Positions 28,547-56,546 of a stretch of 64,000 bases of DNA are shown here, one piece after another; position 1 is the first letter of the stretch, and each line of letters opens with the position of its first letter. The position numbers were made by a program, and so were the translations under genes. The stretch spans positions 1 to 64,000 of the forward strand of contig JAGFJJ010000072.1 of NCBI GenBank assembly GCA_024102815.1. The letters run 5' to 3'. The notes beneath the pieces are model-generated. The model did not search any database, was not told the DNA's origin, and saw only the letters and a program-made list of their open reading frames with translations. Origin of the DNA: Phycisphaerae bacterium (GTDB lineage: Bacteria > Planctomycetota > Phycisphaerae > UBA1845).

Positions 28547-31500
28547 CTACGGATAGACCAAGGCCGACTCGAACACGATGTAACCCACCTGTTCATTCAC
28601 GTGGTTACGTTCCGTGTCCGCAATCTGGTCCTCGTCAATTGCAAGGCGCAACTGCGTGGTTGTCGTCGAGGTGGAACCATACGTATACGCCCAACCACCG
28701 TTGCCGCCGTCCATCGCTGCCATGGTGACCACCGCCACCGAAGGAACCGTCGCGAACGGGGTCCCGAAGGAATAGCTGTAGGGCGGGCTGTTCGTAATGC
28801 CCAAGACGGTGTCGGGGCCGAGGGCGGCCTCATAGGCCACGCCGCCGATCGTCCCGTGACCCGACTCGATCACGATGAAACCGATCGTCTCGTTGGCTCG
28901 CGCCACGATCGTGTCCTCGCAGACCGTCTTTCCGGTGTACAGCACGGTCGCTGTCGGCGGATTGGTCTGGGAATTCCCACGGCACCAGAACACCGACCAT
29001 TCGGGATCGAGCACGCTCATCACTTGGCCGAGTATGACCGGGCTGGTGTAGCTCTGGCCGCAGGTCTGAGCCTGGCCGACCCAGCTGTTGTTCTCATCCG
29101 TGACGGTCGAGGTGTAGATCTGGGCCTCGATATTCACGCCATCGATGGTCCAGATTCCCTCTTCCACGACCAGGCAACTCACGCTCTCGGCCGATACCGC
29201 CCCGCCAGACGGATTCTGCAAACGAAGGTCGAAGCTGGTCGATGTCACGTTGCTGATTCGCGTGACGACCGGCGTCGAGTTGTTGCGGTAGTTGATCGAG
29301 CAGACGATCACCGGACTCGCGTAGGTGTTGGCCAGATTGACGGTCATCGGCGTGCCTCCAACCGTTACCGTTCCGGCCTCCAACTGAGCACCGACAGGGC
29401 CTTCGCAGGTGTCGGTTGACTCATTGCAGGTCTGACCCCCGGTGCAGGGATCGCCGGTGGACGAGCAATCGCTTAGCGCATCGCAATACTCGGAGCCGTC
29501 GCAGAACAGTCCGTTGTCCGGGCAGTTCGCGTCATTGGCCACATAGTCACAGGAGTCGGTGCCCTCGTTGCACACGTCGTCCGTGCAGCCTACCCCGTCG
29601 TCGCAGGTGACCGGTGATCCGGCCTGGCAGCCGAGTGTAACGTGGCAGGTTTCGACACCGTCGCAGTACTGGCCGTTATTGCACAGCGCGTCGTTGGGCG
29701 CGTGATCGCAGGAGTCCGTTCCTTCGTTGCAGGAATCATCCGTGCAGGACACGCCGTCGCTGCAATTGACCGGCGTGCCGGCCACGCAACTTCCGCCAGC
29801 GCAGTCCTCCGCGCCGTTGCAGTAGAGCCCGTCGTCGCAGTCGGCCGGGATGGTGCACTCCGGCCCGCCACTGGCATCGATGAGCAGATCATCAATGCAC
29901 ATATCGCCCTGGTAGCTGGAACCCGTGACGCCTCGGAATCGCAGACTTACCACGGATCCGGCGTAGGCGGACAGGTCCACGTTGGCTTGCTGCCACAGGC
30001 TGCCCTGGTCGCCGGACAGACTCCACAAGGTTGTCCAGGAGTTGCAATCTTCCGACGCCTCGAGCGAGAGCGTGCCCACGGCGCTGCCCAGCATGTGGTA
30101 CCAGAACGACAAGCTGGCGCCAGTCGAGCCGGTCAGGTCTACGCAGGGACCGTCGAGGATCGCGATCATGGATGGGTAGTTCGGGCTGGAGGCTTCCACA
30201 TACATGTACCAGCCCGATCCCGTGGTGTGGTCGCCCGAGGGGCCTGTTCCCGAGGAGGGCGTGCCGCCGGAGTTCCTCGTCCAGTCAATGTCGTCGCTGA
30301 TCGTATTGGACCAATCGCCGAACCCGGCCTCGAAGTCTTCCGCGTCCGGGAAAGCCGCAACGCTGACCGGGCACTCGTTCACGCAGACGCCGCCGACGCA
30401 CGAATCGATCGTGCAGTCGTTGCCGTCGTCGCAGGAAATCGGCGCGTTCTGGCAGACGTTGCCCACGCAGGCGTCAACCGTACAGGCGTCGCCGTCATCG
30501 CACTCGGGATCGCTCGTGCAGGGCATGCCACTGGCGTCGACGGCGATGTCGTCAATGGCGATGTCGCCCGTGTAGCTGCTTCCGCGCGTGCCGATGAAGC
30601 GCACCCGAATGGTGGAACCGGCGTAGGCGTCCAGGCTGATATTGGCCTGATACCAAGTGTTGCCCTGATTTCCGGACAAGCTCCAAACATTGGTCCAGTT
30701 CGTGCAATCATCGGAAACTTCGACGTCCAGCGCGCCGATCGTGGCGCCGTACATGTGATACCAGAAGGAGAAGTCCACCGTGCTCGTTCCAGTCAGATCG
30801 AGGCACGGCCCTTCCAGAATCGCGTAGTCTCCCAGTACGCGCGGGCTGGACGTCTCGATGTACATGTAGTAGCCGGATCCAGTGGTGTGATCTCCCGACG
30901 GCCCGGTGCTGGACGACGGCGTGCCTGCCGCGTCCCGTGTCCAGTCGAACACGTCGCCGCCCACATTGGACCAAGCCCCCTGGCTCGCATCGAAGTTCTC
31001 CGCGTACGGGAACGTCGAAACGGCGCCCGGGCATTCGTTCACGCAGACGTTGCCGACGCAATCGTCCACCGTGCAGGCGTTGCCGTCGTCGCAATCGGCC
31101 GGAACAGTGCACTCGACCGACTCGCAGGTGTCCGTCGCTTCATTGCACGACAGGCCCCCGCAGGGATCGCCCGTACTGTCACAGTCGTTGACCACATGAC
31201 AGAATTCTGTGCCGTTGCAGAACAGGCCGTCGTCCGGGCAATTGGCGTCGTTGGGAACATTGTCGCACGAATCCGTTCCCTCATTGCAGGAGTCATCCGT
31301 GCAGCCCACGCCGTCATCGCAATCCACCGCCGTGCCGGGCTGGCAATCCAACGACACACTACACACTTCTGCTCCGTTGCAGAATAGGCCGTCGTCACAG
31401 AGCCCATGGTTTGGCGCGTGATCGCAGGAGTCGGTGCCTTCGTTACACGAGTCGTCGGTGCAACCGACGGCATCGTCGCAATTCACGGGCGTTCCGGCCT

Positions 31501-35615: not shown

Positions 35616-37855
35616 TCATGGACTCAGCGTCGCCATCAACGGCGGCGTTGGACACAACGCCGGTGACGGAGGCGTCGGTGCGTGAATCGAAGTCGGCGCC
35701 TGCGGATAGGCGTACGGATAGAACTCCTTGCCTGATCCCACGCTGAACGCGTTCACCACACGCAGAACGTCCGGACCGATGACCACGCGGTCCGTGGGTT
35801 CGGGGTTTACGTCGCACCACGTGAAGTGCGGCGCGGTCGGAGCCGCGGATACCGCCTGCAACGTGGCCGAGATGTCGAACCCGCTCACATTCCGATTTGT
35901 GGGCGTCCAGGAATTTGCCGGTGTAGGCGGCGTGGTCGAGCCGTCACCGCCGGCCGAGAACGAGCCGACCACGTCCGCCCAGAAGCGGGCGTTGGACGCC
36001 GTCGGACGGGCCGCGGTGTAGACCTTCAGGGCTCCCGAGAAGTTCACGCCGTCTGTTGTGGCGGTGACCTCATAGGCACGTCCCAAACCTGAAGCGGCGT
36101 CATCGCCGGGGGCGATCATACATCCGCCGACGTGCACGACGGGCAGCGCGCTCCAGTCGTGGAGGATCGGGGACGTGTCCAAGACCACGAAGGTGATGCC
36201 CTGGCCGGCCACAGACGGCGGCGTAGTGCGCGGCGTGCTGATGTAGTAGGACGTCCCCGACCCGACGTCGGTCAGTCGGTACGCTGTGGCCGTGTGCGCG
36301 GCGTCCGGTGCGAACGAGACGTAGCGCTGTTTGGGAGCGCCGTGAGGATATGTCGTAACGGGCAGGGGAGCCGTGATGTCGTATCCGTCCGGCACGCCGT
36401 TGCCGTTGGTATCGATGCTATCATCGAAGCCGGGGCACTGATCGCAGTCGTCCGGCACCGTATCGGCGTCGGCGTCCGGTTCGCATTCATTCGGAATGCC
36501 ATCACCGTTGCAATCGCCCGCCTGAAGGACCAACAGGGAGTCGATGCCGATGTAGTTCGAATTGGCGCCGTTGGGGCCGCCGCCCGTGACGTAGTATCGG
36601 AACGCGATTCTCCCGACGACCGGAGATCGTCTGGCCGTTGTACGTGCCCCCGTCCACCAGCAGCGCGAAGCCGTGATTGGGCACACCGGAATTTGTGTGC
36701 ACGCCGCCCTGGTCGCTCTCGGCGCACCAGTACTGCGCCGTATCGGAGACCTTGCCGGGGTGCCCCTTGCAGTTCGGATTCCACAGGTCCCGATAGACCC
36801 CGCCCGCGCCATCCTCGGGGGTAAAGCCACCGCACGGAATTCGCCGTGCCTGTCTGGAGAGTGATCGTGGCCGATACGCCCGGGAGCTCGGCCTCGATGT
36901 CCGCGCCGGCGCTTTGGCGGATGATGACGCTTGGGATCGCCAACGGGCCCGTACCCGACATGGTGAAGATGCTGTCGTCCGTATTGGCAACGATCACGTC
37001 GACGGCGCCGGCCGCCGCCGCATTCAGGACTTTCTGAGTAAACGCACACGTGCCGCGATCGATGAGGGCGATGTTGCCGGCCGTGAACCCGATCAGTGAC
37101 TCACAACCGTCCGTCACACTCGCGGTGCCGTCGTTCACCAGTTCTACGTCAGCGGACACCGTCACCGGTGGCACTGGATTGAAAGCCGCTCCGCCGGCCG
37201 GGTATTGGCCGGCAATGGCCGGCGGCGAATCGACAGTAAACGTCGGCGGAATGGAACCTCCGAACACCGAGCAGTCGCCGGGCGTTCGCACCACATCCGG
37301 CGTGTCCGTACCGGAGCCGTTCAGCAGGTCGACGACTTCGCTGAAGATATCGGAATACGACTCGTTCAACGCTCCCGGTTGCCATTGGTAGATCAAGCCG
37401 TGCGTGCTTTGTGTGTAGGCGTGCGTCCATTCGTGGGCGACGGTGTTGTCGCTGGTCGACCCAATGCAGAATCCCACGTGCGAACCCGTCCAGTGGGCGT
37501 TCGGGCAGGTGATGTCGTTGTCGTCATGTATGGCCGGCATTTGGCCGTCGGCGTTGTCCCACGAAAGGATCGTGCCGTTCGTCGCACTGGCGATCAGGTT
37601 GTAGATGTCCTCCGAGTACTCGATGATGTTGTCGACTTCCGCATCGCCGAAAGGCAGCGTGTCCCCTTCCTGCCAGAGGATGTTGCCCGGATCCACGAAC
37701 TGGTCGTAGACGATGCGATCGATGGCGTCGTGAATTCCGGTGATCTGGTCGACGATGGCGCCCTTGTGCGCGTCGACGTACACGAACTCGCGCACGTTCG
37801 AGCCGTTGCCCACCACCAAAAGATGACCATTTTCATCCACGATGTGACTGGGAGA
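35616..37855 (-). pseudogene. M4 (thermolysin-like) metalloprotease, truncated and twice frameshifted
   Basis: Three overlapping minus frames together encode one protein: a propeptide end (REFVYVDAHKGAIVDQITG), the M4 zinc site HEWTHAYTQ with the downstream Glu motif GALNESYSDIF, an inserted PA domain (about 37150-36880), the M4 C-terminal part with DQGGVHTNSGVPNHGFALL, a calcium-binding D-x-D stretch and a C-terminal domain beginning TYPHGAPKQRYVSFAPD. The frame changes near 36840 and again near 36620, each needing one extra base to be skipped. No signal peptide is present; the 5' end is joined to IS256-like sequence. It is probably inactive, unless the shifts are sequencing errors. Confidence 0.8.
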
Positions 37856-43167: not shown

Positions 43168-43614
43168 TTATGGATTCAGCGCCGCCATAAGCGGCGGCGT
43201 CGGACACAACGCCGGCGACGGTGGCGTCGGCCCGTGAATACCCGTGGGGAACGGCGTTGGTTCCGGATACGCGTACGGATAGAACTCCTTGCCTGATCCC
43301 ACGCTGAACGCGTTCGCCACACGTAGCACGTCCGGTCCGATGACCACGCGGTCCGTCGGCTCGGGGTTTACGTCCACCCAGGTAAAGTGCGGCGCCGTCG
43401 GGAGCGATGATACGGCTTGCAGTGCCGCGGAAATGTCAAACCCGCTTACGTTCCTGTTCGGCGGTGTCCAAGAGTTCGCTGGCGTAGGCGGCGTCGTTGA
43501 ACCGTCGCCGCCGGCCGAAAACAAACCCACGACATCTGCCCACAGTCGGGCGTTGGCTGTGGTCGGAAGCGCGGCGGTGTGTACCGTCAGTGCCGGAGAA
43601 AAACTCAATCCATC
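43168..43614 (-). pseudogene. 3' half of secreted cohesin/dockerin-like gene split by IS66
   Basis: The frame reads L-S-F-S-P-A-L-T-V-H-T and ends at CPTPPLMAALNP. It is the missing C-terminus of the gene at 48150-50311. Joining the two at one copy of the 8 bp target duplication gives an in-frame ATPDG|LSFSPALTVHT. This matches ATTDGVNFSGALKVYT in the intact-order paralogue at 35616-37855. The piece itself has no start signal and should not be expressed as a protein alone. Confidence 0.88.
43607..43614. repeat. Target-site duplication, left copy
   Basis: AATCCATC directly precedes the left end of the IS66-type element and is repeated at 48150-48157 just after its right end. Eight bases is the usual IS66-family duplication length. 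Confidence 0.85.
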
Positions 43615-43661
43615 GTGTCCGCTGAATAATCCACGTCTACGCGCCGGCGTTTTGGCCTGGC

Positions 43662-44075
43662 ATGCTGTCGCTCATGAGCAGAGCAAACGATGCGGCCGGG
43701 CGGTGGCGTGAGATTCTCCAGCGGCAGTCCAGCAGCGGGTTGTCGGTGGCCGCGTTCTGTCGGCGGTCGCGCATTTCGCAGGCCTCGTTCTACACCTGGC
43801 GTCGGAGGCTCCGAGACGGGGCGACCCCGTTCTTCGCCGAGGTGCACGTAACTCCAGATCCGCGTTCGACGAAGGTGCCTTCCGTACCTTCCCCGACCCA
43901 GCGTCCGCTCGAACTGGTTCTCCTTGGCGGTCGCAGCGTCGTGGTTCGGCCGGGCTTCGACGCGGCGACGCTGCTGGCGCTGGTCAGCGTGTTGGAGCGC
44001 GGTACCACCGAGGATGATTTTGTGAAGGTCGGTTCGCGGCGTGCCGTAAGCGCCGATGCGGAGTCCGGCGCGTGA
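43662..44075 (+). CDS. tnpA: IS66 accessory protein TnpA
   Basis: 137 residues. The N-terminal helix-turn-helix is typical of IS66 Orf1: RWREILQRQ, SGLSVAAFCRRSRISQASFY, TWRRRL. The C-terminal half has LELVLLGGRSVVVRPGFDA and LALVSVLE. It is likely a DNA-binding helper in transposition. ATG 43662 or 43674 can be the start. Its stop overlaps the GTG start of tnpB (GTGA at 44072-44075), suggesting coupled translation. Confidence 0.88.
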   Translation: MLSLMSRANDAAGRWREILQRQSSSGLSVAAFCRRSRISQASFYTWRRRLRDGATPFFAEVHVTPDPRSTKVPSVPSPTQRPLELVLLGGRSVVVRPGFDAATLLALVSVLERGTTEDDFVKVGSRRAVSADAESGA

Positions 44076-46357
44076 TTCACCTCCCGTCCCTGGCCCAGCT
44101 GGACCGCGCCGCCAAGACCCGGATCTGGCTGTGCACCGGGCCGACGGACATGCGGCGGGGATTTGGTACGCCAGGCCAAGCTTGGCGCTTTCAGCGGGTG
44201 AGATTCCCGCCCTGGCAAGGGGAGGAGCCACCCCACCAGGAATCGAGTCTTGGGCTCATGGAGGCAACGACATGAGTTAAGTGTAGACAGAGCGACATCT
44301 GGGCCGTAACGCAAGTGAAGCGGTTGAGCCTCGTGACAACAACAACCGAGGGCCGACGGAATCGAACCTCCGGAAGGCACAAGTAGGCGACCACCAATGG
44401 CCAGGTCGCTGGAGACCTCGGCGGGGTCTGAGCGCACGGCACGGATGGAAACGGAAGCGTCAGGAACCTGGGAGATCCACTGCGGTCTCCGGCCGTAACG
44501 GCCGGAGTATGCGGAGCACGAGGCACATCCGAAGGCAAGCAGACGCCACAGTGGAAGTCGGACTCGCTGATAGTACTCGGAGCACGGGAGAACCGTGTAC
44601 ATGGGGAAGCGGCGAGCAGGACGAGTTCCTTCATTCACGGATACATGGCCTCCACTCAGAGGGAGGACCGCCATGACAACGGAACTGAGGAAGGTAGTCG
44701 ATAGGGCCCAAGCCGATCATCATGTGCGTTTCACGTCCCTGGCTCACCTGCTGACCCTGGAATTCCTCGCGGAGACCTGGGCGCTGGTGAACAAGCGCGG
44801 GGCGCACGGCGTTGACGGCGAGACCGTCAAGGAGTTCGAGGAGAACCTGAAGGCGCGGCTGGAAGACCTCCACCAACGTCTGAAGGCAGGAAGGTATCGA
44901 GCGCCGGCAGTCCGCCGCGTGCATATCCCCAAAGGCCCGGGTAAGACTCGGCCGCTGGGGATTCCGACCGTGGAGGACCGGCTGGTACAAGCCGCCGTCG
45001 CTCGCATCTTGAGCGCGGTCTTCGAGCCGGTGTTTTGTGATTGCTCGTTTGGATATCGACCCGGTTGCAGCGCGCACGATGCACTGCGCCGCCTGAGAAG
45101 TCATCTCATTGGTGGCAAGGTCATGCACGTGTACGAGGCAGACATCCGCTCGTATTTCGATCGAGTAAATCACGAATGGCTGCGCCGGATGCTGGCCCAG
45201 CGGATCGCCGACCCTGTCATCATGCGCCTGATCAACAAATGGTTGCGCGCGGGTGTGATGGAAGACGGCGTGACGATACGCCAGGAAGGGGGAGTCCCTC
45301 AGGGGGGTCCCATCAGTCCCATCTTGGCCAATGTTTACTTGCACTACGCGCTGGACCTCTGGTTCGAGCGTCGGTTCAAGAAACACTGCCGGGGACAGGC
45401 CTGTCTGGTGCGGTTTGCGGACGATTTCGTAGCGACTTTTCAATACGGATCGGATGCGGACAGGTTTGGCGCAGAACTGCGTGCTCGCATGGAGATGTTC
45501 GGTTTGGAACTCTCTCCGGAGAAGACGCGGCGTCTCCTGTTCGGGCGCTTCGCCAGAGAGCGGCTTGCCGCTCAAGGCAAGCGACCCGACACCTTCGACT
45601 TCCTCGGGTTCAAACACGTGTGCGGCGTGGATCGCCAGGGACGATTCGCGGTCATCCGGCTGCCCAGTCAGAAGAGTTGCCGGAGATTCCTCGACCGGGT
45701 TCGCCAATGGCTACGCGCCCACAACCATTGGAAGGTGCGAGACCAGCAGAAGCGGTTGAGTCAGATGCTACGCGGCTACTACCAGTACTTCGCGCTGCCG
45801 CACTGCGGTGCCAAGCTGTTTGCCGTCTACTCGACAGTTACGCGTCAGTGGCGACGAACGCTACTTCGTCGCAGTCAACGCAGCAGGGCACACTGGAGCT
45901 ACTTGCGTAAGCAGGCATGGTTCAGACTGCCGACGCCGGTGAGCCTTCACCCGACGGTCTGACGGGGCCTTCAGGCGGATGCGTCCTGAAGAGCCCGTTG
46001 CGGGAAATCTGCACGGCGGGTTCTGTGGGGGGCCTGGGTGGGCGACCACCCAGGTCTACCCGACATCGCCTGGCCGAGCAGTCGCAGCAGGTCACACGCC
46101 GGGATCCGCAGTCCGGGCATCTCTTCGTTTTCCGCTCACGCCGTGGTGACAGACTGAAGGCACTCTATTGGGACAAGGACGGATACGTTCTGGTGTACAA
46201 GCGTTTGGAAGAAGGCACATTCAAACTTCCCAAGCTCGCCGCGGATCAGGAATCGGTCGAATTAAAAGCCAGCGAACTGGCCATGCTGCTCGACGGCATC
46301 GACCTGTCGAGCGTCAAGCGCGTGAAGCGTTACAAGCGTGCATGCGCTAACGCGTAG
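44072..46357 (+). CDS. tnpB: IS66 TnpB, split by group II intron (exons 44072-44165 and 46065-46357)
   Basis: Exon 1 encodes residues up to GPTDMRRGF plus the first base of the next codon. Exon 2 supplies the rest of that Asp codon and continues RLAEQSQQVTRRDPQSGHLF, VFRSRRGDRLKALYWDKDGY, VLVYKRLEEGTF. The spliced product is about 128 residues and is a complete IS66 Orf2 protein with its conserved DMR-x-GFD and W-D-x-D-G-(F/Y) motifs. Without splicing the reading frame ends inside the intron. Translation starts at GTG 44072, overlapping the tnpA stop. Confidence 0.88.
44673..45962 (+). CDS. ltrA: Group II intron reverse transcriptase/maturase
   Basis: 429 residues from ATG 44673, which follows GGGAGGACCGCC; the upstream in-frame codons are intron RNA. 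RT motifs: GVDGETVKEF (RT0/1 region), KTRPLGIPTVEDRLVQAAV (RT2), FEPVFCDCSFGYRPGCSAHD (RT3), YEADIRSYFDRVNHEWL (RT3/4 catalytic Asp), EGGVPQGGPISPILANVYL and LVRFADDFV (FADD replaces the usual YADD, a known variant). Thumb and maturase X regions follow, ending around MLRGYYQYFALP. No HNH endonuclease domain is present, so it would insert by an endonuclease-independent route. Confidence 0.92.
   Translation: MTTELRKVVDRAQADHHVRFTSLAHLLTLEFLAETWALVNKRGAHGVDGETVKEFEENLKARLEDLHQRLKAGRYRAPAVRRVHIPKGPGKTRPLGIPTVEDRLVQAAVARILSAVFEPVFCDCSFGYRPGCSAHDALRRLRSHLIGGKVMHVYEADIRSYFDRVNHEWLRRMLAQRIADPVIMRLINKWLRAGVMEDGVTIRQEGGVPQGGPISPILANVYLHYALDLWFERRFKKHCRGQACLVRFADDFVATFQYGSDADRFGAELRARMEMFGLELSPEKTRRLLFGRFARERLAAQGKRPDTFDFLGFKHVCGVDRQGRFAVIRLPSQKSCRRFLDRVRQWLRAHNHWKVRDQQKRLSQMLRGYYQYFALPHCGAKLFAVYSTVTRQWRRTLLRRSQRSRAHWSYLRKQAWFRLPTPVSLHPTV
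45991..46024 (+). ncRNA. Group II intron domain V
   Basis: A 34-base hairpin: GAGCCCGTTGCGGG pairs with CACGGCGGGTTC around a GAAA-type turn and an internal bulge. This is the catalytic helix of the ribozyme and is the best-conserved intron signature. It lies 29 bases after the maturase stop and is followed directly by domain VI. Confidence 0.88.
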
Positions 46358-46434
46358 CCTGCGGCAAGAACTTCGCAGATTTTTGCGGGAATCTTCGTGC
46401 GCAATCAACGAAGCGCGTGTATACTTCCATTGTC

Positions 46435-48086
46435 ATGGAGGACGCTTCCTTCCTTGCATCCCTGCCCGATGATATCAACGAACTGAAGCGGCTGCTGGTC
46501 GCGCGCGAAGAACAGCACCGAGTGACAATCGCTGGTCACGAGAACACGATCGCCACGCTCACGCAACAACGCGACGAATACTACATCGAGAAGCTGCGGC
46601 TGGAGGTACGACTGGCCAAGGCATTGAAGCAGGCCTACGGTCCGCGGGCCGACCGGGTGCGAGCCTCGGCCAGCTCTTGCTGGGCTTCGCCCAACAAGTC
46701 GATGCCTTGCCGATCGCCACGGATCTTCCGGACGATATCGCTGGTGACGACGAAGCCACGGCGCAAGCACCATCGCGCTCTCGCCGGCTGCGCATGCGCG
46801 GCCGGCGGGACATCGGGACGCTCGACCACCTGCCGCTGATCGAGCAGGTCTACGAATTGACCGACGAACTCTGTCGTTGCCCGAACTGCCAGGCCGAGCG
46901 GGAGAAGATCGGCGCGGCCGTCAGCTACACCATCGAGTACCTCCCGGGCTCGCTGGTTCGCATCAAGCACGTGCAGCACAAGTACGCCTGCCGCCACTGC
47001 GAGCAGAACGGAGAGAATCCCCGCATCACCCTGGCGCCCAAGACGAACGGCTCGCCGATCGACAAGGGGATGCCGGGCCCCGGCCTGCTGGCCTTCGTAG
47101 CCACTTCGAAGTTCAGCGACTACCTGCCCCTGCACCGTCTGCAGACCATCTTTGCCCGGGAGGGCTTCGAGCTCGACCGGTCGACCCTGTGCGTGTGGAT
47201 GGCGGACGTCGCCCGGCTGGTGCGACCACTGTACGACCGCATGGTGCAGCGCGTGCTGCAATCCCACGTCCTGGCCACCGACGACACGGTCATGCCCATG
47301 CAGCATCCGGGCAAGACCAGGAAGGCCCGGATGTGGATCTACCAGGGAGACGAGTCACAACCGTACAACGTCCTCGACTTCACCGTCAGTCACTCGCGTG
47401 ACGGCCCGGCCCGGTTCCTCGAGAACTTCCGCAGTACCTTGCTGGCGGATGCCTATGGTGGTTATGACGGGATCGTCCTGACTCAGGAGCTTCCGCGCGC
47501 CGGCTGCTGGGCCCACGCGCGGCGCAAGTTCATCGACTGCCAGGCGGCGGCTCCGCAGGTGACGCAAGCTATCCTGCATTTGATCAAGGGACTGTTCGCG
47601 GTGGAGCGGCGCGCCAAGGATAGGGCACTAGACGAACGCCTGCGCCGTCGGCAGGCCGAGGCCGTGCCCTTGTTGGAATCACTGCACGCTCTGCTGACCG
47701 AGCAGAAGGCGAAGCTATTGCCCAAGCATCCACTCAGCGAGGCGATCCAGTACACGCTGAACCAATGGTCGGCGTTGACCCTGTTCGTCACCGACCCGGC
47801 CGTGCCCATCCACAACAACCTGGCCGAGCAGGAGATGAAGCGGATCGCGCTCCTTCGCAAGAATGCCTTGTTCGTGGCCACACCCCGCGGGGGCGAGACC
47901 GCCGCCATCCTCAGTAGCCTGACCAGCACCTGCCGCCGGCACGGCGTCAACCCGCAGGCCTACCTGACACAACTCCTGGCTAACCTGCCCGACACGCCGG
48001 TGAACGACATCGACCAGTGGCTGCCCGACGAATGGAAAAAGCGGATGGCCAACCAACCCGCCGAATCCGATCCCCGCCCAACCTGA
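46435..48086 (+). CDS. tnpC: IS66 transposase TnpC, with internal frame change
   Basis: Two overlapping frames form one IS66 transposase. Frame 1 (from ATG 46435 or 46417) encodes the N-terminal coiled coil: LPDDINELKRLLVAREEQHR through LRLEVRLAKALKQAYGPRAD. Frame 2 continues LGQLLLGFAQQVDALP through a zinc-finger region (CRCPNC, CRHC) and the DDE core: ATDDTVMPMQ, LLADAYGGYDG, CWAHARRKF and IHNNLAEQEMKRIALLRKN. The switch, about one base, is near 46655-46665. Either tnpC is mutated, a sequencing error is present, or frameshifting is used. Total length about 550 residues, usual for the family. Confidence 0.85.
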
Positions 48087-48149
48087 TCACGCCGACGCTC
48101 GCAGCCAATTCCTCAACCCGGCCCGGGGCGCCGTTCGTTCAGCGGACAC

Positions 48150-48157
48150 AATCCATC
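48150..48157. repeat. Target-site duplication, right copy
   Basis: AATCCATC immediately follows the right inverted repeat of the IS66-type element and matches 43607-43614. Confidence 0.85.
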
Positions 48158-50311
48158 TGGAGTAGCGCGGATCTCATATGCTCGGCCCATTGCCGTGTCT
48201 GCGTCGCCAGGGGCGATCATGCAACCTCCGACATGGATGGCAGGCAATGAAGACCAGTCGTGGAGAACCGGCGCGGCATCAGACACGACGAAAGTCAGGC
48301 CCTGTCCCACCACCGACGCCGGTATCGTCCGTGGCGTGCTGATGTAATAGGCTGCGCCGGAGCCGACGTCCACGACCTCGAAACCCGTGGCGGTATGCAA
48401 CGCATCCGGTGCAAACGAGATATAACGCTGCTTGGCTGCGCCGTGCGGGTAGGTTGGGATCGCCACGGGCTCGGGAACTTCCGCATTTCCAACGGTGATG
48501 CTGACGGTATCGTAGAGTATATCGATGGGATCAACGTCACCGACGCCGCAGATCGCCGAACCATAGATATCCGAGCCCGTCGCGCCCGCTTCAAACAACA
48601 CGCCTCCTTCCGCATCGGCGATGAACTCCACTATGGCGACTCTCGCCCACATCGGCGCGACGGCGATGACGTCCGCACAGGCCCCGAGGTGCGAGCCGCT
48701 GAGGTCGTCGATTACCCCGCCGGGATTATCGATCACTCCGTGGACGAGTTCGGCAAATATCGAGGATGCAGTAACGCTTGCGGCCGTCACGCGCGAGGAA
48801 TCAAATTGCAGGTCCAGCGAGGCGGACGAAAGTCCGTTCGGATTATCGGTTTGGACCCAAACTTCCAGGAACACGACGGCGGACACGTCGAAATTGGTTT
48901 GCGAAATCGGCACGGAGGCGGCCGAATCGCTTGGGCTCGGTGACGCGAGAGCCGCCAAACGAAACTCGGCCGGACCAGCGAGGACAGACTCCGTATCTAG
49001 ACCTCCGAGATCTATCACTTTCACGCCGACACGTTCCGAAGCGGTAATCGAAGGAGTAGACTCAGAGGCCCTGCCGGATTCAGAAGTGGTTTTGTCGAAC
49101 CCTGTACAGGACGCACACGTACCGCATGTCTCCCCAAAGCATCCCACGAAGGCTGCGAAATCTGAAGTACCGACGCATCCGCCCGGGTCCCCTTCGAAGT
49201 TGGCATCGAGGCATGGGGCACCGGGCTGATAACAGGAACCGAAGCAGGGAGCAAAGGCGCTGAAATCTCCCGTACCGATGGTTTCGCTTGAGTCCAGATC
49301 GAAGATACACCATGCACAGCTAAGTGTGCTTTCTATGCAATGTTCGCACTCCGCCGTACAGGGGGCGGCACCGGGCAAGCAGCCCTGAACGCTATCACAA
49401 GTCTCGACGCCATCGCAGTAAAGCGTGTTATCACAAAAGGCGTCGTTCGGCGTGTATGAGCAGCCCGTACCGGGGGCGCCGAGTTGATCACAGGCATCAA
49501 TTGTGCAATTGACGGAGTCGCTGCAATTCGCGTTATTGGGGGAACTGACGCAGGCACCGGCGCCACCACCCGCCGCTGGGTCGCACGAATCATCCGTGCA
49601 ATCAATCAGATCATTGCAACTCGGGGCCGATCCCGGCTGGCAGGTGTTTGTGACCGGATCGCAGGTCTCCGCCCCGTTGCAGAACTGTCCATCATCGCAG
49701 TCCGTATCCGCAAGACATTCGACGAGCGTAACACCAACGGAACCGAAGCTGATCTGCCCGGCGGAAACGTCTCCGGACCCACAGATCGCCGTGCCGTAAA
49801 TCGCGGAACCGGAGCTTCCCGACTGAAACGTTAAGGAACCGATCGATTGCGCGATTACGTCCAGGATCGCCACGCGCACCCAGTCGGGCGAGGCGCCGAT
49901 GCCGTCCGAGCAAGGACCAAGATGAGAACCGCTCAGGTCTTCAACCAGGCCCGCCGAATTCTCGATCGTGCCGTGCGTCAGAACGTCGAACGTTGCCGAA
50001 TGCGTTATGGCGGTCACATCGGCTAGCAGAGCATCGAAGCTGATATCGGCCGAAACCGAAGAGAGTCCATTGGCGTTGGCGGTCTGGACCCAAAGTTCAA
50101 CGACAAACGTCGCATCGTCGAGAAACAGGCTCTCCGACTCTGGTGGAGCCGAAGCAATATCCGAGGAACTGGGAGCGCCAAGTGCCGCCAATTCCAAACT
50201 AACCGTTTGCCCCTGAGCGGCCTGGATGCTCGCCAACGTACAGACCAGCACGACGATGTTGACCGCCAAGGAGTACCAACCGCTCGATTGCAATCTCTTC
50301 GATGGTCTCAT
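48150..50311 (-). pseudogene. Secreted cohesin/dockerin-like protein, 5' part, split by IS66
   Basis: About 720 residues before the insertion. A signal peptide is followed by a cohesin-like beta domain (about 40-205), Cys-rich CDDGQFCNGAETC repeats, a dockerin-like pair (DLDSSETIGTGDFSAFAPCF and GGCVGTSDFAAFVGCFG), a second cohesin-like domain (about 440-610), and the start of a C-terminal domain opening YPHGAAKQRYISFAPD. It ends in the IS66 element, where a few foreign residues precede a stop. ATG 50311 follows GGAGG. It lies 39 bp after the cytochrome gene on the same strand, so the two probably shared an operon. The rest is at 43168-43614. Confidence 0.87.
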
Positions 50312-50350: not shown

Positions 50351-53300
50351 TTAACGCGTTGCCGCCCGAAGATTGGCGGACCGATTCGACTTCCCCAAGA
50401 CCAACACTCTCGTGCCCTCAAACCGGATCAGCGTTGAATCCAGGTCGTCGGCTTCGCCATGAAGGACGATCCCAAAGGGAGCGGCGCTCAGGACCAAGTT
50501 GACGGCAAGAGGCCCGGTGCGATCCGCCTGTGCATGGATAGTGGACACACGAACCCAGTTTCCATTCAGACCAAGCGACCTGTCACTCATGGATGCACAG
50601 CCTCCGGCGCGGCTGATGCGCCCCCTCGCGACATCAACCTCTGCCCTGCTCGAGAAAAGCGGGAGCAGGGTGCTGGGCGCGACCTGAACGACCGACGCCC
50701 GCTCTTGGTCATAGGTGACGTCTACGTAAAGGCCGGCGATGCCTTCGCGCCCTTCGCCAAGCGCATGCGACCTTGTTGCCCAGATTTCCACATAAAAATC
50801 GTCGCCACGACGAAGCGACCGCAGGGACTGCGGCGGCTCGAACAGAAACTCGGTTGCGGTCGGCGTGTCGACCACGACAACGCGCAGCGAAACCATGGGT
50901 CCCGATGAGGAAGTGACCCGTGCCTGATCGGAAGGCCTACTCAAGGGTGGTCCGGCGCAGCTGGCACACTCGCCACATGTGGCACCGAAGCAGTTCGCGA
51001 ATATGGCGAAGTCGGCGGTGCCCACGCAACCCTCCGGATCTCCGCTGAAATTCGAGTCCCAGCAGGGATCGCCGGGAGCGTAGCAATTCCCGAAGCACGC
51101 GGAGAACATGGCGAAATCGCCTGTTCCGATAGAAGTACTGCCATCGATATCGAGCATGCACCATACACAGGAATCCAAATCTTCGTCGCAGTGCTCGCAC
51201 TCGGTCGTACAGGGGATGGTACCGGCCAAGCAACCCTGCACTCCGTCGCAGGTCTCGACACCGTCGCAGAAAAGTCCGTTGTCACAGAGGGTATGGTTGG
51301 GCGTGTGATCGCACGTGTCCGTGGATTCGTTGCATGCGTCGATCGTGCAGGCGACGCCGTCTGTGCAGTCAACTGGAATGCCCGGCAGGCAATTGCCGGT
51401 GCCGATGTCGCACGTTTCTGGGCCGTTGCAATAAAACCCATCGTCGCATTCGGCATCGACGGTGCACGTAGCACAGTCGACGGCGCAGTTGACATCGCTT
51501 TCGGTGCCTTCACAAGTACCGTCGCCGCAGCAGGTAGGAGACGGCGGAACGAACGTGGGATCACAGTCAACCGGGCAGTTGCTCGCGTTCTCGCCGGAGC
51601 AGATTCCGTCGCCACAGCATCCGTTGGAGCACCCCCCACCCGTGCACCGGCAGTCGGTTGGACAAGTAAAGCAATCCTCGCCGCTGCCAGCGCAGATTCC
51701 GTCACCGCAGGTTCCCCCGGGAGCGCTGAAGCAATCGTTCGGACAGGTGACGCAGTCCTCACCCCGTTCACACGTGCCGTTGTCGTTGCATCCGAGTGAA
51801 TAGCAGGTATCGCTAACCTCGTCGCAACCTTGGCCGGGACAGGGGTCGATGCCGGGGGCGCAAAATCCTGTCGTGCATACCTCCAATCCGTTGCAGTACA
51901 GCCCGTCGTCGCAATCGCCGCCGACAGTGCAGGTCTGCAGCGTGAAGGACGCGGCACTCATGGGCTCCGGCGGACATTTGCCGTTGTTGTTCCACAAATC
52001 GTAGAGTTCCTGGCCTTTGCTGTTGGTCGAGTTCTCGGCCAACAGGAACTCAACGAACTCTTTACTCGTGCTTTGATAGTAGAGGGTTACCTCGGCCGAC
52101 GTGGCCGTCGGGGGTATGGTGTGCACAGTATCATCCCAATACTGACCGTCGGCATACGAGTAGGCTACCGGAGGGCCGCCGAAATTCGCGAACGCCGCGT
52201 TCGTAAAGCCTCTCGGAGGAATTCGATTGTCCTTCAGGACCGAGTTGTTGAGAACGAAGTGGAACTCCGTTTCGTCCGGCACGCCGGGGATTCCCGATGT
52301 TGCCGGCAGAATCTCGTAGATCTTCGCCTCGGGGTCATGAGAGAGCACGCCGGTTGCTGAGTCATACGCGCCGGATTCTCCAACCAATGCCATTGCATTG
52401 TCAAAAAACTTGATATTGAGCCATGCGCGCCGGCCTTCCGGGTAACCAGTCGGCAGCTTGTGCCCGGTGTTGTTCGTTATGGTAACAATGAGTTCCGGAC
52501 CGTTCTGGGCAATATCCATTTCGGCCGCGTTTTGAAGCATGTACCTTGCCCGGGCGATGCCCGCCTGAATGGCTGCGTCGTTTACCTCTCCGGGAAAGAG
52601 GGTACTCAGCAGGCCGGGGAACCAGGTGCTTCCACCGGTCATGTCGTGCAAGGGCAAATCGTTTCGAACCGGCGGTGCGAGATTGCAACCCTGCCCGGTG
52701 ACGTCCCGCATGTGGCAATCCTGACAAGTGGCGACGTAATCCTTGTTGCCACCGAATTCGGGAGCATAGACGCCAGTGGGCGTGTTGTATTCGCTATTCA
52801 GCCATTCGCTGTAGGTGCGCTCAACCGGGGCAATGATGTTGGCCGAGAAGTCGCTGGCGGGGGCATCGAGTGCGTTGGGTACATAGTTCCCGTTGACATC
52901 CTTCTCGAATGCTGGGTTGCTCACGTTGTGGCATGTCCCGCACAATGCGGCCTCGCGATGGAATGGCGAGACCAGGATCGGGTGCCCGCTGTCCGCGTCC
53001 GCGAAAGGTCCGCGCCGTGCGCCCGTAGGGTCGATGACATACATGCCGGTTCCGAAGGTGAGCGGTACGAGCGCCAGGGCGTTCAGGATTGCCGTGTCCT
53101 CACTCGGGTTCGCCGGATTAGGGATGGGGTCCACGAGGCGGTGGCAAAGATCACACGCAACGCCGATAGCATCCGTGGCCAGCATCTCGCTGCCATCCGT
53201 CGGCACGGAGCGGCCCCGCAACCATCCCCGGGCAAGATGACACCGCAGGCAAAGGTCGCCGGAGTCCGGCGCGTCCTGATTGGCGATGGCCAGTGCCGCC

Positions 53301-54283
53301 TCAAACAGGAGGTCCCGCGAGGCGTGCGCCATCATACTGCCCTGCCAGTTGTAATAGGGCTCCACGTTGGCGTCGTAATTGCCGTGACAAACCGCACATG
53401 CTTCGGGAGGATTCAGGATGCCGGCGTCGAAGGGCTGGCTGCCGGGCATGTCGAAATCGCGCAGCGTGGTGGGCACGATCCCGCCGGGCGGAGATTGGAT
53501 GGTAAACGCGCTATTACTCGTGTCTTGCCCCGTGTTGAAGGCATTATCGATGGCCTCCACGAGGAAAAGCGCGGTGGTCGTCGGTCGATTCGCTGGAAAC
53601 CACTGATGGCTACCGGAATTGGAGATACCCAGCGCCACAGGGCTGTAGGTGGCGCCATTATCCAGAGACACGTAAAGGCTGACACCGGAGATCCCGCTGT
53701 CATCGGTGGCGGTCCACTGAACAGTCGTGGCGGTATTGGCCGTGAGCACCTCTCCCCCGTTCGGTGCAATCACGGTTACAACGGGCGGGGTGGTATCTCC
53801 ACCGCTGCTAGGCACCAGGAAATCCTGAATGTCGGCGATGGATACGTTCGTGGCGCTTCCGACGTTGCCAGGCGTTAGCCCAGGGAATGTCGGCGTATTT
53901 GTATAGTTCGTTATATCGGTGACTTCCACAAACGTGCTGTATCCGTCGCCGTCCGGGTCGTTATTTCGAATCGACCAGATCGCATCCTGGTACCCCTGCG
54001 CGTTATTCGGGTACAGCGGGAGCGCGTTCCCTACATCGATACCATGCGGGTTTCGCGTGCCACCTCCGTTGAAGTCAAAATGGCAGACACCGCAATGACC
54101 GCTGTTGCTGGGCACGTCATCCAACACGGTTCCGACTGCGCTTGGATAGACAGTGAAAAAGGCGTCGCGGAACTTCGGCCTCGCAAATGCCCAATCTGCG
54201 CTGAAGCCAAGGTAACAAAGCAATACGAACACGGCGTGAGCGACCGCCCGGCACCGATCTGTTTGGTGCAATGAGCGAATCAT
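50351..54283 (-). CDS. Six-haem c-type cytochrome with Cys-rich, dockerin-like and cohesin-like modules
   Basis: 1310 residues from ATG 54283, preceded by AAAGGAGG. Signal peptide, then six CXXCH haem sites: CGVCH, CAVCH, CLRCH, CDLCH, CGTCH and CQDCH. An Ig-like insert (PPVVTVIAPNGGEVLTANT) lies between the first and second. After about residue 740 come Cys-rich repeats (CDDGLYCNG, CGDGIC types), a dockerin-like pair (DIDGSTSIGTGDFAMFSACF, CVGTADFAIFANCFG) and a C-terminal cohesin-like domain. The haem part suggests periplasmic or surface electron transfer, in the broad style of cytochrome c554/multihaem proteins. The accessory modules suggest surface attachment or assembly. Likely first gene of an operon with 48150-50311. 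Confidence 0.88.
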   Translation of the reverse strand: MIRSLHQTDRCRAVAHAVFVLLCYLGFSADWAFARPKFRDAFFTVYPSAVGTVLDDVPSNSGHCGVCHFDFNGGGTRNPHGIDVGNALPLYPNNAQGYQDAIWSIRNNDPDGDGYSTFVEVTDITNYTNTPTFPGLTPGNVGSATNVSIADIQDFLVPSSGGDTTPPVVTVIAPNGGEVLTANTATTVQWTATDDSGISGVSLYVSLDNGATYSPVALGISNSGSHQWFPANRPTTTALFLVEAIDNAFNTGQDTSNSAFTIQSPPGGIVPTTLRDFDMPGSQPFDAGILNPPEACAVCHGNYDANVEPYYNWQGSMMAHASRDLLFEAALAIANQDAPDSGDLCLRCHLARGWLRGRSVPTDGSEMLATDAIGVACDLCHRLVDPIPNPANPSEDTAILNALALVPLTFGTGMYVIDPTGARRGPFADADSGHPILVSPFHREAALCGTCHNVSNPAFEKDVNGNYVPNALDAPASDFSANIIAPVERTYSEWLNSEYNTPTGVYAPEFGGNKDYVATCQDCHMRDVTGQGCNLAPPVRNDLPLHDMTGGSTWFPGLLSTLFPGEVNDAAIQAGIARARYMLQNAAEMDIAQNGPELIVTITNNTGHKLPTGYPEGRRAWLNIKFFDNAMALVGESGAYDSATGVLSHDPEAKIYEILPATSGIPGVPDETEFHFVLNNSVLKDNRIPPRGFTNAAFANFGGPPVAYSYADGQYWDDTVHTIPPTATSAEVTLYYQSTSKEFVEFLLAENSTNSKGQELYDLWNNNGKCPPEPMSAASFTLQTCTVGGDCDDGLYCNGLEVCTTGFCAPGIDPCPGQGCDEVSDTCYSLGCNDNGTCERGEDCVTCPNDCFSAPGGTCGDGICAGSGEDCFTCPTDCRCTGGGCSNGCCGDGICSGENASNCPVDCDPTFVPPSPTCCGDGTCEGTESDVNCAVDCATCTVDAECDDGFYCNGPETCDIGTGNCLPGIPVDCTDGVACTIDACNESTDTCDHTPNHTLCDNGLFCDGVETCDGVQGCLAGTIPCTTECEHCDEDLDSCVWCMLDIDGSTSIGTGDFAMFSACFGNCYAPGDPCWDSNFSGDPEGCVGTADFAIFANCFGATCGECASCAGPPLSRPSDQARVTSSSGPMVSLRVVVVDTPTATEFLFEPPQSLRSLRRGDDFYVEIWATRSHALGEGREGIAGLYVDVTYDQERASVVQVAPSTLLPLFSSRAEVDVARGRISRAGGCASMSDRSLGLNGNWVRVSTIHAQADRTGPLAVNLVLSAAPFGIVLHGEADDLDSTLIRFEGTRVLVLGKSNRSANLRAATR

Positions 54284-54705
54284 TGTGCTGCCTCCTTTGA
54301 ATTGGTGAGGTGAATTCCATTCCCGGCCCTGCCGTAAGCTGCGGGCGGCCCTATCAACCCACAGCGGCGCGCGACTCGCCCCCACGGGAATCACGTTATC
54401 CCGCCCTACCGGCTTGCGGTAGCAGCGCCAGGAGCAAAGCCATGTGGGACTGTGCGAGAAGAGCTGTAGGACAAACAGAAGGGTCTGTAGGATGCCCCCG
54501 CCGCAAGGCAAGCGGTGCTCACCTGGGTCCCCGGTTCGGTGACCAAGGCGGCCGAAATAGCAGGACCGTCGGTCGCGTCGCGCGACTCTTCTACCAGCCC
54601 TCTCTCTCACTGCGGTATTCAACTCGGGGAATAGCGTTTGGCCGGGCAAAACACGTTTGTCAAGATCACGCTTGTTCGGATTGAGGTGTGCTTTGGAGGA
54701 GCAAC
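54284..54705. promoter_or_regulatory. Divergent control region between cytochrome and two-component genes
   Basis: 422 bp separate the leftward cytochrome from the rightward histidine kinase. A direct repeat CTGTAGGA occurs at 54464-54471 and 54485-54492, 21 bp apart (about two helical turns), a spacing that suits binding by a dimeric activator on one DNA face. No -35/-10 pair was convincing. A role as the response regulator's site is a guess. Confidence 0.3.
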
Positions 54706-55917
54706 GTGGCAAGCAGCAGCCGAGAGGCATCAGCGAAAGTGAAGGCTGAGAAGCTCAGGAGTGATGAAAAGGGCAAGCGGATGGCACAATTCTGCATGTC
54801 CGAGAACAACCGACTTTGCCATGACCTGACGTTGTCCACGGCCGAGCAACGGTATTGCCTCCTTTTTCAGCAGAGTCTGGCCGGAATCTACACGACAACG
54901 ATCGACGGAGTTATCGTGGATTGCAACGATGCAATGGCCTCGATGCTGCGGTACGATTCCCGCGAGGGGTTGATGGCCAGGGCCGCATCCGATCTGTACT
55001 TTGGGGACGTTGATCGCCGAGCGTTTCTTCGGCGGTTGCGCCGCAAGGGCAAGCTTGTCAATTCCGAGTGTGTGCTCCGATGCAGCGACGGCGCGCCAAT
55101 CCATGTACTTGAGAATGTTGCGCTGGTCCCAGACGAGCAGGGCAGCCCCAGCATCATCCACGGCAACATGGTTGATATCACCGATCGGAAGCGGGCCGAG
55201 GACGCCTTGCGGGAAAGCGAGCGTCGCCATCGAACGATGGCCAACGAACTCCGTCGGCTTGCGGATCATCAGGAGAAGGTGCGTGAAGGCGAGCGAGCGC
55301 GCATTGCCCGCGAATTGCACGATGAATTCGGGCAGGCCCTGACAGCCCTGAATATGGATCTGCACTGGCTCGCAACCCGGTCAAGCAACGATTCATCCGA
55401 GGTTGGCTTGCGGATCAGGGCAATGACGCGCCTTGTCGCGAGCACTACGGAGACACTACAGCGCATCTGCACCGACTTGCGTCCTACCGTCCTGGATGAC
55501 TTCGGTTTGATCGCTGCGATCGACTGGGGAGCCAAGCAGTTCCAGCGGCGCACGGGCGTCCTTTGCCGCGTTCGATTGCCTCGCAAGAATCGGTGCCCAT
55601 TGCCTAGCGACCAGGCCACGTCAGTCTTCCGGATTTTCCAGAAGAGCCTTACCAATGTCGGGCGGCATGCCCATGCGACGGAAGTTAATGTTATTCTCAG
55701 GATCAAGAATGGGCAGGTCACGATGTCCGTATCTGACAACGGCGTCGGTACGCGGGCGGATCAGATTTCCAGTACCGAATCCCTTGGGCTGATCGGGATG
55801 AGAGAACGCGCTCTTGCTTGGCGTGGCCACGTGGAGTTCACCGCTTCGCCGTCAAAGGGCTCCACAGTCTCCCTGCGGATGCCCGTTGCACCCAATGGAA
55901 CGGAGGATGACCGGTGA
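54706..55917 (+). CDS. PAS-domain sensor histidine kinase (NarX/DegS-type)
   Basis: 403 residues from GTG 54706, which has GGAGGA five bases upstream. A short N-terminal helix leads to a PAS domain (about 48-165: LFQQSLAGIYTTTIDGVIVD through GNMVDITDRKRAEDALRESE). Then comes the HisKA_3 dimerisation helix with the phospho-acceptor His in ERARIARELHDEFGQALTAL, and the HATPase_c domain with FQKSLTNVGRHAHA (N box), SDNGVG (G1) and GLIGMRERA. No transmembrane segment is present, so it senses a cytoplasmic signal. It overlaps its response regulator by four bases. Confidence 0.9.
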   Translation: MASSSREASAKVKAEKLRSDEKGKRMAQFCMSENNRLCHDLTLSTAEQRYCLLFQQSLAGIYTTTIDGVIVDCNDAMASMLRYDSREGLMARAASDLYFGDVDRRAFLRRLRRKGKLVNSECVLRCSDGAPIHVLENVALVPDEQGSPSIIHGNMVDITDRKRAEDALRESERRHRTMANELRRLADHQEKVREGERARIARELHDEFGQALTALNMDLHWLATRSSNDSSEVGLRIRAMTRLVASTTETLQRICTDLRPTVLDDFGLIAAIDWGAKQFQRRTGVLCRVRLPRKNRCPLPSDQATSVFRIFQKSLTNVGRHAHATEVNVILRIKNGQVTMSVSDNGVGTRADQISSTESLGLIGMRERALAWRGHVEFTASPSKGSTVSLRMPVAPNGTEDDR

Positions 55918-56546
55918 TTCGAGTCGTCATCGCCGACGATCATGCCATTGTTCGCGAAGGGATTAGACGCACACTCGCCGACACGCCGGATATCCAGGTA
56001 ACGGGCGAGGCCGGTGACGGTCGAGCGCTTCTGGCCGCCTTGACCCGAAATCCGGCGGATGTCGTCTTGCTGGATCTGGCCATGCCGGGAACACCCGGAC
56101 TAGAGCTCCTCGAAGAGTTACGACGACGCAATCCTTCGCTGCCCGTTCTCGTTCTGAGCATGTACCCGGCCGAACAGTACGCCGTTCGGGCGATCCAGGC
56201 CGGAGCGGCGGGCTACATCAACAAGGCAAGTCCGCCGTCCGAGTTGCTCGCGGCCTTGCGCGCGGTCGCGGTCGGCCACCGCTACATCAGCCCGGACGTG
56301 GCAGAGAGCCTTGCCATGCATCTCGACCGAAGTGCGGCACGTAACCCACACAACGGCCTTTCCAACCGGGAGTATGAGGTCATGTGTTTGATCGCGCGCG
56401 GCCGCAGCGCAAGCGAAATCGCCGATTCCCTCGGCTTAAGCGTCAAAACCGTCAGCACATACCGCCGCCGAATCCTAGAGAAGCTCAACTTGATCCAGAA
56501 TGCCGAGATCACGCGATACGCCATTGAGCATGCGCTTATCGAGTAG
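55914..56546 (+). CDS. NarL/LuxR-type response regulator
   Basis: 210 residues. The receiver domain has acidic residues DDH (8-10), phospho-acceptor Asp in VVLLDLAMPGTPGLELLEEL (about 55), Ser in VLSMYP and Lys in GYINKASPPSELLAAL. The C-terminal LuxR-type HTH contains LSNREYEVMCLIARGRSASE, IADSLGLSVKTVSTYRRRIL and EKLNL. GTG 55914 overlaps the kinase stop (GTGA), so the pair is translationally coupled. Target genes are unknown; the divergent cytochrome operon is a candidate by position. Confidence 0.92.
   Translation: MIRVVIADDHAIVREGIRRTLADTPDIQVTGEAGDGRALLAALTRNPADVVLLDLAMPGTPGLELLEELRRRNPSLPVLVLSMYPAEQYAVRAIQAGAAGYINKASPPSELLAALRAVAVGHRYISPDVAESLAMHLDRSAARNPHNGLSNREYEVMCLIARGRSASEIADSLGLSVKTVSTYRRRILEKLNLIQNAEITRYAIEHALIE

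Follow-up and report, generated by a model that had tools for sequence, protein, structure and literature searches.

A hexahaem cytochrome with dockerin-like and cohesin-fold modules: predicted cargo of a surface complex in a Phycisphaerae bacterium

In a stretch of 64,000 nucleotides from a Phycisphaerae bacterium (assembly GCA_024102815.1, contig JAGFJJ010000072.1, positions 1 to 64,000; hereafter the window) we investigated gene 1, which encodes a secreted protein of 1310 residues (P0001) on the reverse strand at 50351..54283, and gene 2 (P0002), which follows it in the same direction and can now be read over 48113..50311. P0001 joins a cytochrome with six haem sites to a dockerin-like module and a cohesin-fold domain. 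Based on the cohesin fold, the likeness to dockerins, the operons of relatives and the co-occurrence of the modules, we therefore favour, with moderate confidence, a non-cellulosomal cohesin–dockerin surface complex of the 'planctosome' kind with the cytochrome as cargo as the best explanation of the whole. In this way the bacterium may keep an electron-transfer protein attached to a scaffold that resembles a cellulosome, by a docking that is predicted. A preliminary description of this DNA had put forward a surface complex holding an electron-transfer protein; the folds, the operons and the co-occurrence make this the best reading, qualified by an adaptor gene that is interrupted in this genome.

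Non-cellulosomal cohesin/dockerin systems occur in many genomes and their cargo is mostly unknown, while in the present case a cargo can be given a name. The new elements are this named redox cargo and a class structure among the docking modules. With a nameable cargo, a small kit that comprises three dockerins and three receptor cohesins, and intact anchor operons in relatives, the pairing is directly testable. Two questions would be linked by the system, namely the purpose of docking complexes in planctomycetes, and the way in which bacteria that lack a type IX or porin-type system keep electron-transfer proteins at their surface.

The cytochrome half of gene 1

The reading frame of gene 1 was assigned from its ATG at 54283, the Shine-Dalgarno-type ribosome-binding site AAAGGAGG just upstream, and its orthologues. 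From the N-terminus P0001 consists of a signal peptide, one CXXCH haem site, an immunoglobulin (Ig)-like insert, five further CXXCH sites, cysteine-rich repeats, a dockerin-like pair and a cohesin of the 'tail' class defined below. The signal peptide (residues 1–34, ending AFA before RP; 54182..54283) was recognised by eye in the sequence. The N-terminal haem site reads CGVCH (54080..54094), and the other five (53384–53398, 53237–53251, 53141–53155, 52928–52942 and 52712–52726) lie in a core that spans 51938..53425. All six motifs, at residues 64, 296, 345, 377, 448 and 520, were invariant across an alignment of 65 sequences. Ahead of the core lies the Ig/FnIII-like insert (53483..53803), which exceeded the Pfam cut-off for Big_7 and had a fold match with Z 12.1. 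The architecture given in the preliminary description, one polypeptide with six CXXCH sites, an Ig-like insert, cysteine-rich repeats, a dockerin-like pair and a cohesin-like domain, was confirmed by the motif positions, Big_7 and the profiles described below. Searches of Pfam and NCBIfam alone identified neither the cytochrome nor the docking modules of P0001.

The cytochrome half was modelled by AlphaFold2 from 65 sequences with a predicted local distance difference test (pLDDT) of 88.7 and a predicted template modelling score (pTM) of 0.77. The five-haem core gave one strong match in the PDB, to 5ze8, which is the pentahaem cytochrome c552 from Thermochromatium tepidum (Foldseek E 1.3e-13; VIA-align Z 23.4 with 22% identity and a root-mean-square deviation (rmsd) of 2.9 across 335 residues). 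With five CXXCH sites in the c552 fold, P0001 has the defining features of the pentahaem cytochromes (c552/ExtKL/PHC). In a study from 2025, ExtKL, Gsu2801 and the pentahaem cytochromes (PHCs) of cable bacteria were united in one family that is structurally homologous to T. tepidum c552, and the role proposed for ExtKL is extracellular electron transport (PMC11976967). The ExtKL equivalog model NF040886 weakly matched most of the orthologues scanned (20–40 bits against a cut-off of 250), and P0001 itself had no match to it in the NCBIfam scan. When the PDB was searched by sequence with P0001 nothing was found, and the search with profile A2 gave weak matches only; the viral contigs that were searched contained no relatives. 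Judged by sequence, the cytochrome half is distantly related to ExtKL. Because it belongs to the c552/ExtKL/PHC family, and given the role proposed for ExtKL, P0001 probably functions in electron transfer at or beyond the outer membrane.

Over its whole length the cytochrome has close orthologues, with about 50–74% identity, in Phycisphaerae and other Planctomycetota as well as in Verrucomicrobia, Kiritimatiellales, Eisenbacteria, Krumholzibacteriia and Latescibacterota. At six loci of orthologues, which include duplicates of one and the same contig, genes for MauG/MbnH-like di-haem proteins adjoin the cytochrome (L103, 2663–3883; L064/L104, 4084–5277; L162; L075/L117), and such a protein is a possible redox partner. 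No gene of this kind was seen near gene 1. The locus L103 (QZKR01000134.1) is labelled Myxococcales; its cytochrome shares about 70% identity with that of the planctomycete and has a planctomycete-style tail, the likely explanation being mis-binning of the contig or a transfer. We considered L103 as a second case of the cytochrome–dockerin–cohesin fusion and rejected it, as its last domain, though cohesin-like by eye, was unmatched by the profiles.

Docking modules and their relatives

The haem core is followed by a linker of cysteine-rich CDDGxxCNG-type repeats (51200..51937), recognised in the sequence and paralogous to repeats across the genome. Thereafter come a duplicated EF-hand module of a dockerin-like, Cys type (50957..51199; E 2.9e-33) and the cohesin-fold domain (50411..50893; E 4.8e-44), the latter also supported by AlphaFold2, fold matches and a tree; the profiles that gave these two values include the sequences themselves. 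In an independent search, the 271-residue dockerin and cohesin tail of P0001 alone retrieved relatives with E down to 8e-59.

AlphaFold2 modelled this docking piece (275 residues, 23 sequences) with a pLDDT of 87.2 and a pTM of 0.86. For its second domain cohesins topped both match lists (Foldseek E 7e-8 to 5lxv; VIA Z up to 14.8, to 2vo8; rmsd 2.4 over 133), and the domain has the nine-strand jelly-roll of the cohesin fold. The Pfam model Cohesin (PF00963) did not match P0001 and gave 15.0 bits against a cut-off of 24.1 in P0002; of 52 members of the cohesin family it matched eight at E<=0.1, the best at 2.8e-5. The duplicated calcium-loop/helix motif of about 22 residues that is typical for type I dockerins was found in the dockerin-like module, whose alignment (A4) runs into canonical pairs. 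Some A4 members match Pfam Dockerin_1 or EF-hand, and the A4 profile, which itself includes five canonical members, matched the dockerin 2y3n_B with E 5e-6. Dockerin_1 (PF00404) matched six of the 33 alignment members and had no match in P0001. On this structural check of the modules, a cohesin fold was found, the dockerin-like pair was seen to grade into canonical dockerin/EF-hand pairs, and unrelated folds were not seen.

We searched 150 relatives with the docking half of P0001. In these the docking modules sit on varied heads: an S8 protease, CotH with lamin-tail domains (LTD), a calcineurin-type phosphoesterase, a ThuA-like domain and a propeller. Six genomes of the same family have three consecutive genes, encoding an S8 protease with a dockerin, then a cohesin–Cys–dockerin–cohesin protein, and then a cohesin with a C-terminal membrane tail. 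The recognised sorting signal IPTL-CTERM was above cut-off in three of the five proteins of the last kind that were scanned. By their module order, P0001 and P0002 are read as a variant of this cargo–adaptor–anchor layout. Cargo, adaptor and anchor lie on separate polypeptides in the relatives; in the present genome this holds for cargo and adaptor.

The Cys-type dockerin, called at E<=1e-20, was present in 15 of the 150 genomes, and the cohesin in all 15 of these, while among the whole 150 it was present in 31 (Fisher p 1.9e-12); the genomes in this comparison share ancestry, and the dockerin and cohesin profiles were seeded partly from the same loci, which makes the association not wholly independent. 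Of 30 dockerins, 28 were located <=350 bp from a cohesin, and one of the remaining two lies at a contig end.

We termed cohesins 'tail' when they stand directly after a dockerin and 'receptor' when they open the following gene or are its sole such module. In a tree of 46 cohesins the two classes were separated by a branch of length 0.9 with support 100/99. Both cohesins of P0002 were of the receptor type and that of P0001 was of the tail type, on a long branch. The protease operons contained two dockerin clades (100/100, 95/99) and two receptor cohesin clades (99/94, 100/99), a pattern to be expected if every pair is specific in its own way.

The spacing between the dockerin and the tail cohesin was near-constant, at 13–24 residues, in most of the dockerin–cohesin proteins. 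In the P0001 model the joint pTM was high despite a low-confidence linker between the two domains, which suggests that they are held in a defined arrangement. Both observations could mean that the dockerin pairs with the tail cohesin, either within one chain as a rigid dyad like an X-dockerin module, or head-to-tail between gene 1 copies as a homopolymer. We hold this to be improbable, since the tail cohesins are a class apart from the receptor cohesins, and protease-type cargo has a dockerin without a tail cohesin, yet precedes a receptor cohesin.

The C-terminal end of the cytochrome varies by lineage. In Eisenbacteria, Krumholzibacteriia and Latescibacterota it is a type A sorting domain of the type IX secretion system (T9SS), with TIGR04183 above cut-off in all four proteins scanned, and the Verrucomicrobia orthologues end in a different conserved tail. 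Most Planctomycetota orthologues end in a dockerin-like pair of about 65 residues, one of which matched Dockerin_1 with E 0.0009, and in Zixibacteria a relative that shares the five-haem core has a terminal dockerin above cut-off. Since tails are swapped between lineages on the same cytochrome, the tail looks like a surface-placement device, and the T9SS tails of orthologues are consistent with a surface location of the cytochrome.

The same exchange of a plain dockerin-like pair, a T9SS tail or a Verrucomicrobia tail would fit a docking tail that is simply the generic surface-retention tail of the lineage, freely swapped, with the cytochrome outside any defined multiprotein scaffold. At least 15 canonical dockerins above cut-off in the genome, and a C-terminal domain of gene 2 that recurs more than 20 times, agree with this view. 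However, the Cys-type dockerin is a separate and rare kind that goes with an equally uncommon family of cohesins in operons of cargo, adaptor and anchor, and a generic tail would need no paired cohesin gene. We regard this alternative as unlikely, though as one that deserves some weight beside a surface complex.

Gene 2, its interruption and the predicted assembly

Gene 2 starts with an ATG at 50311, 39 bp downstream of the gene 1 stop and on the same strand. As now readable it encodes a cohesin, a cysteine-rich part, a dockerin-like module, a second cohesin and the first half of a C-terminal domain. Cohesin 1 (49736..50203) and cohesin 2 (48503..48967; Pfam Cohesin E 0.029) were assigned by profile and tree, and the dockerin-like module (49106..49348) by alignment and profile. 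An adjacent gene with two cohesin-like domains and the same dockerin-like pair had been described before, and this was borne out, the pairs of P0001 and P0002 being 65% identical.

The interruption of gene 2 had not been recognised earlier, nor had the second gene pair described below. The first half of the C-terminal domain (48150..48484, reverse strand) is separated from the second (43171..43614, reverse strand) by an insertion sequence (IS) of the IS66 family, 4535 bp long, on the forward strand (43615..48149). The ends of the element match each other (GTGTCCGCTGAA), and the 8-bp target sequence AATCCATC is duplicated, with its left copy at 43607..43614 and its right copy at 48150–48157. 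The element contains IS66 TnpC (46677–48086) and the reverse transcriptase of a group II intron (44595–45962). The last approx. 10 codons and the stop of P0002 as annotated fall inside the element, and other genome copies of the domain continue about 130 residues beyond the point where P0002 switches to unrelated sequence. A natural end of gene 2 at 48113 was ruled out, as the element cuts the gene. This C-terminal domain of about 250 residues (KxRYISFxP ... DVNPEPTDRVVIGPDVLRVVNAF ...) is common to many otherwise unrelated secreted proteins, often at 60–77% identity, and is probably a lineage-specific sorting or anchoring tail. One further copy is at 35619–37100 of the window, and no Pfam model matched the region 35616–37049, which bears it.

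An IS66-family element with a target duplication inside gene 2, together with a fusion verified in one genome, could indicate a decaying one-off, in which the cytochrome was joined to docking modules by chance and the fusion has been useless since the element broke the adaptor. We consider this quite unlikely. Every cohesin and dockerin module of gene 2 is encoded ahead of the insertion point, and gene 1, which retains its ribosome-binding site and every haem site, is itself intact. The assembly also resembles a metagenome bin, so intact copies of gene 2 may exist in the population.

A second, paralogous docking gene pair was found on contig C69 of the same genome. Its first protein has the order X–Cys–dockerin–cohesin, and its second the order cohesin–Cys–TSP3, ending in CGACGLG, a hydrophobic stretch and RR (L084, 7106–9490). 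From this C-terminal hydrophobic tail we infer an anchor role, and the protein is possibly an undescribed CTERM-type anchor; exosortase genes are present in the genome. In total the genome contains three Cys-type dockerins and three receptor cohesins.

In the surface complex that we favour, the product of gene 1 would be an exported cytochrome with six haems, of the same kind as pentahaem c552 and ExtKL, docked through its C-terminal dockerin and tail cohesin into a small, calcium-dependent complex at the cell surface. Gene 2 would be the adaptor, with its two receptor cohesins holding dockerin-bearing cargo and its own dockerin passing the assembly on to another receptor cohesin, most plausibly that of the C69 protein with the C-terminal membrane tail. 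Because three dockerins stand beside three receptor cohesins, with the class split, a simple closed assembly can be proposed: the C69 anchor, the P0002 adaptor with two sockets, and as cargo the cytochrome and the second dockerin-bearing protein of C69. The same logic would serve an S8 protease in relatives and an electron-transfer protein here. A more far-reaching idea, which we rate as a long shot, is a self-assembling redox scaffold: cytochromes lined up next to one another on receptor cohesins, or joined head-to-tail via their own dockerin and cohesin, would bring neighbouring haem chains into contact and give an extracellular electron conduit that is built by docking and without a cytochrome filament.

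Several observations weigh against a surface complex holding the cytochrome. The P0001 modules are below the Pfam cut-offs for Cohesin and Dockerin, and the Cys-type dockerin has a two-residue insertion in its second EF-hand loop. The joint pTM of 0.86 may reflect intramolecular binding between the dockerin and the tail cohesin. The fusion of cytochrome, Cys-type dockerin and cohesin was verified in this genome alone, with the look-alike L103 unmatched by profiles, and the genome is a single draft in 79 contigs whose adaptor gene is interrupted. The shared seeding of the two profiles is a further point.

Among the neighbouring genes, a PAS–histidine kinase and a LuxR-type response regulator are divergent from gene 1 (54688..56546, forward strand), and relatives of both adjoin several orthologous cytochromes. 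Also observed, 14 kb from the gene 1/gene 2 locus, was an S8 subtilase of 1919 residues that has two MAM domains and numerous CDDGxxCNG-type repeats (28547–34306, reverse strand).

Comparison with known systems

Like the pentahaem family (T. tepidum c552, 5ze8; Geobacter ExtKL; cable-bacteria PHCs), P0001 has the five-haem core fold, with a weak ExtKL profile match among its orthologues, and like the PHCs of cable bacteria it has an Ig-like companion domain (PMC11976967). Unlike the members of that family, it adds an N-terminal haem, places the Ig insert ahead of the core and carries C-terminal docking modules.

With the cellulosome of Clostridium the system shares the cohesin fold, a dockerin-like EF-hand pair and a hierarchy of cargo, adaptor and anchor. 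The 'cellulosome-style scaffold' of the preliminary description has to be qualified, however: proteins here have one or two cohesins and there is no long multi-cohesin scaffoldin, and gene 2, with two cohesins, had no match to a carbohydrate-binding module in Pfam. Nor are the heads on the Cys-type dockerin carbohydrate-active enzymes, being the cytochrome, S8 protease, CotH, phosphoesterase, ThuA-like domain and propeller.

A literature search, thin on subscription papers, gave no paper that connects dockerins to multihaem cytochromes in Planctomycetes, and none that connects them to pentahaem cytochromes. Cohesin/dockerin proteins have been noted in ANME (methane-oxidising) archaea and the bacteria that partner with them, all of which are organisms that carry out extracellular electron transfer, with the attachment of functional proteins or of partner cells as suspected roles (PMC9012536, PMC10553843). 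The extracellular use of cohesins and dockerins is common to those systems and ours; unlike here, the parts of those reports available to us describe no cytochrome that itself bears docking modules.

The closest precedent is the proposed 'planctosome', under which name non-cellulosomal cohesin–dockerin complexes in Planctomycetes have already been published (Andrei et al. 2019, ISME J, PMC6461901). Both systems comprise cohesin and dockerin modules, a cohesin-bearing anchor, an adaptor with dockerin and cohesin, dockerin-bearing cargo and TSP3/LTD/P-domain companions, with no link to cellulose. The likeness is one of architecture, and whereas the planctosome of other planctomycetes carries peptidases (PMC6461901), the cargo here is a hexahaem cytochrome.

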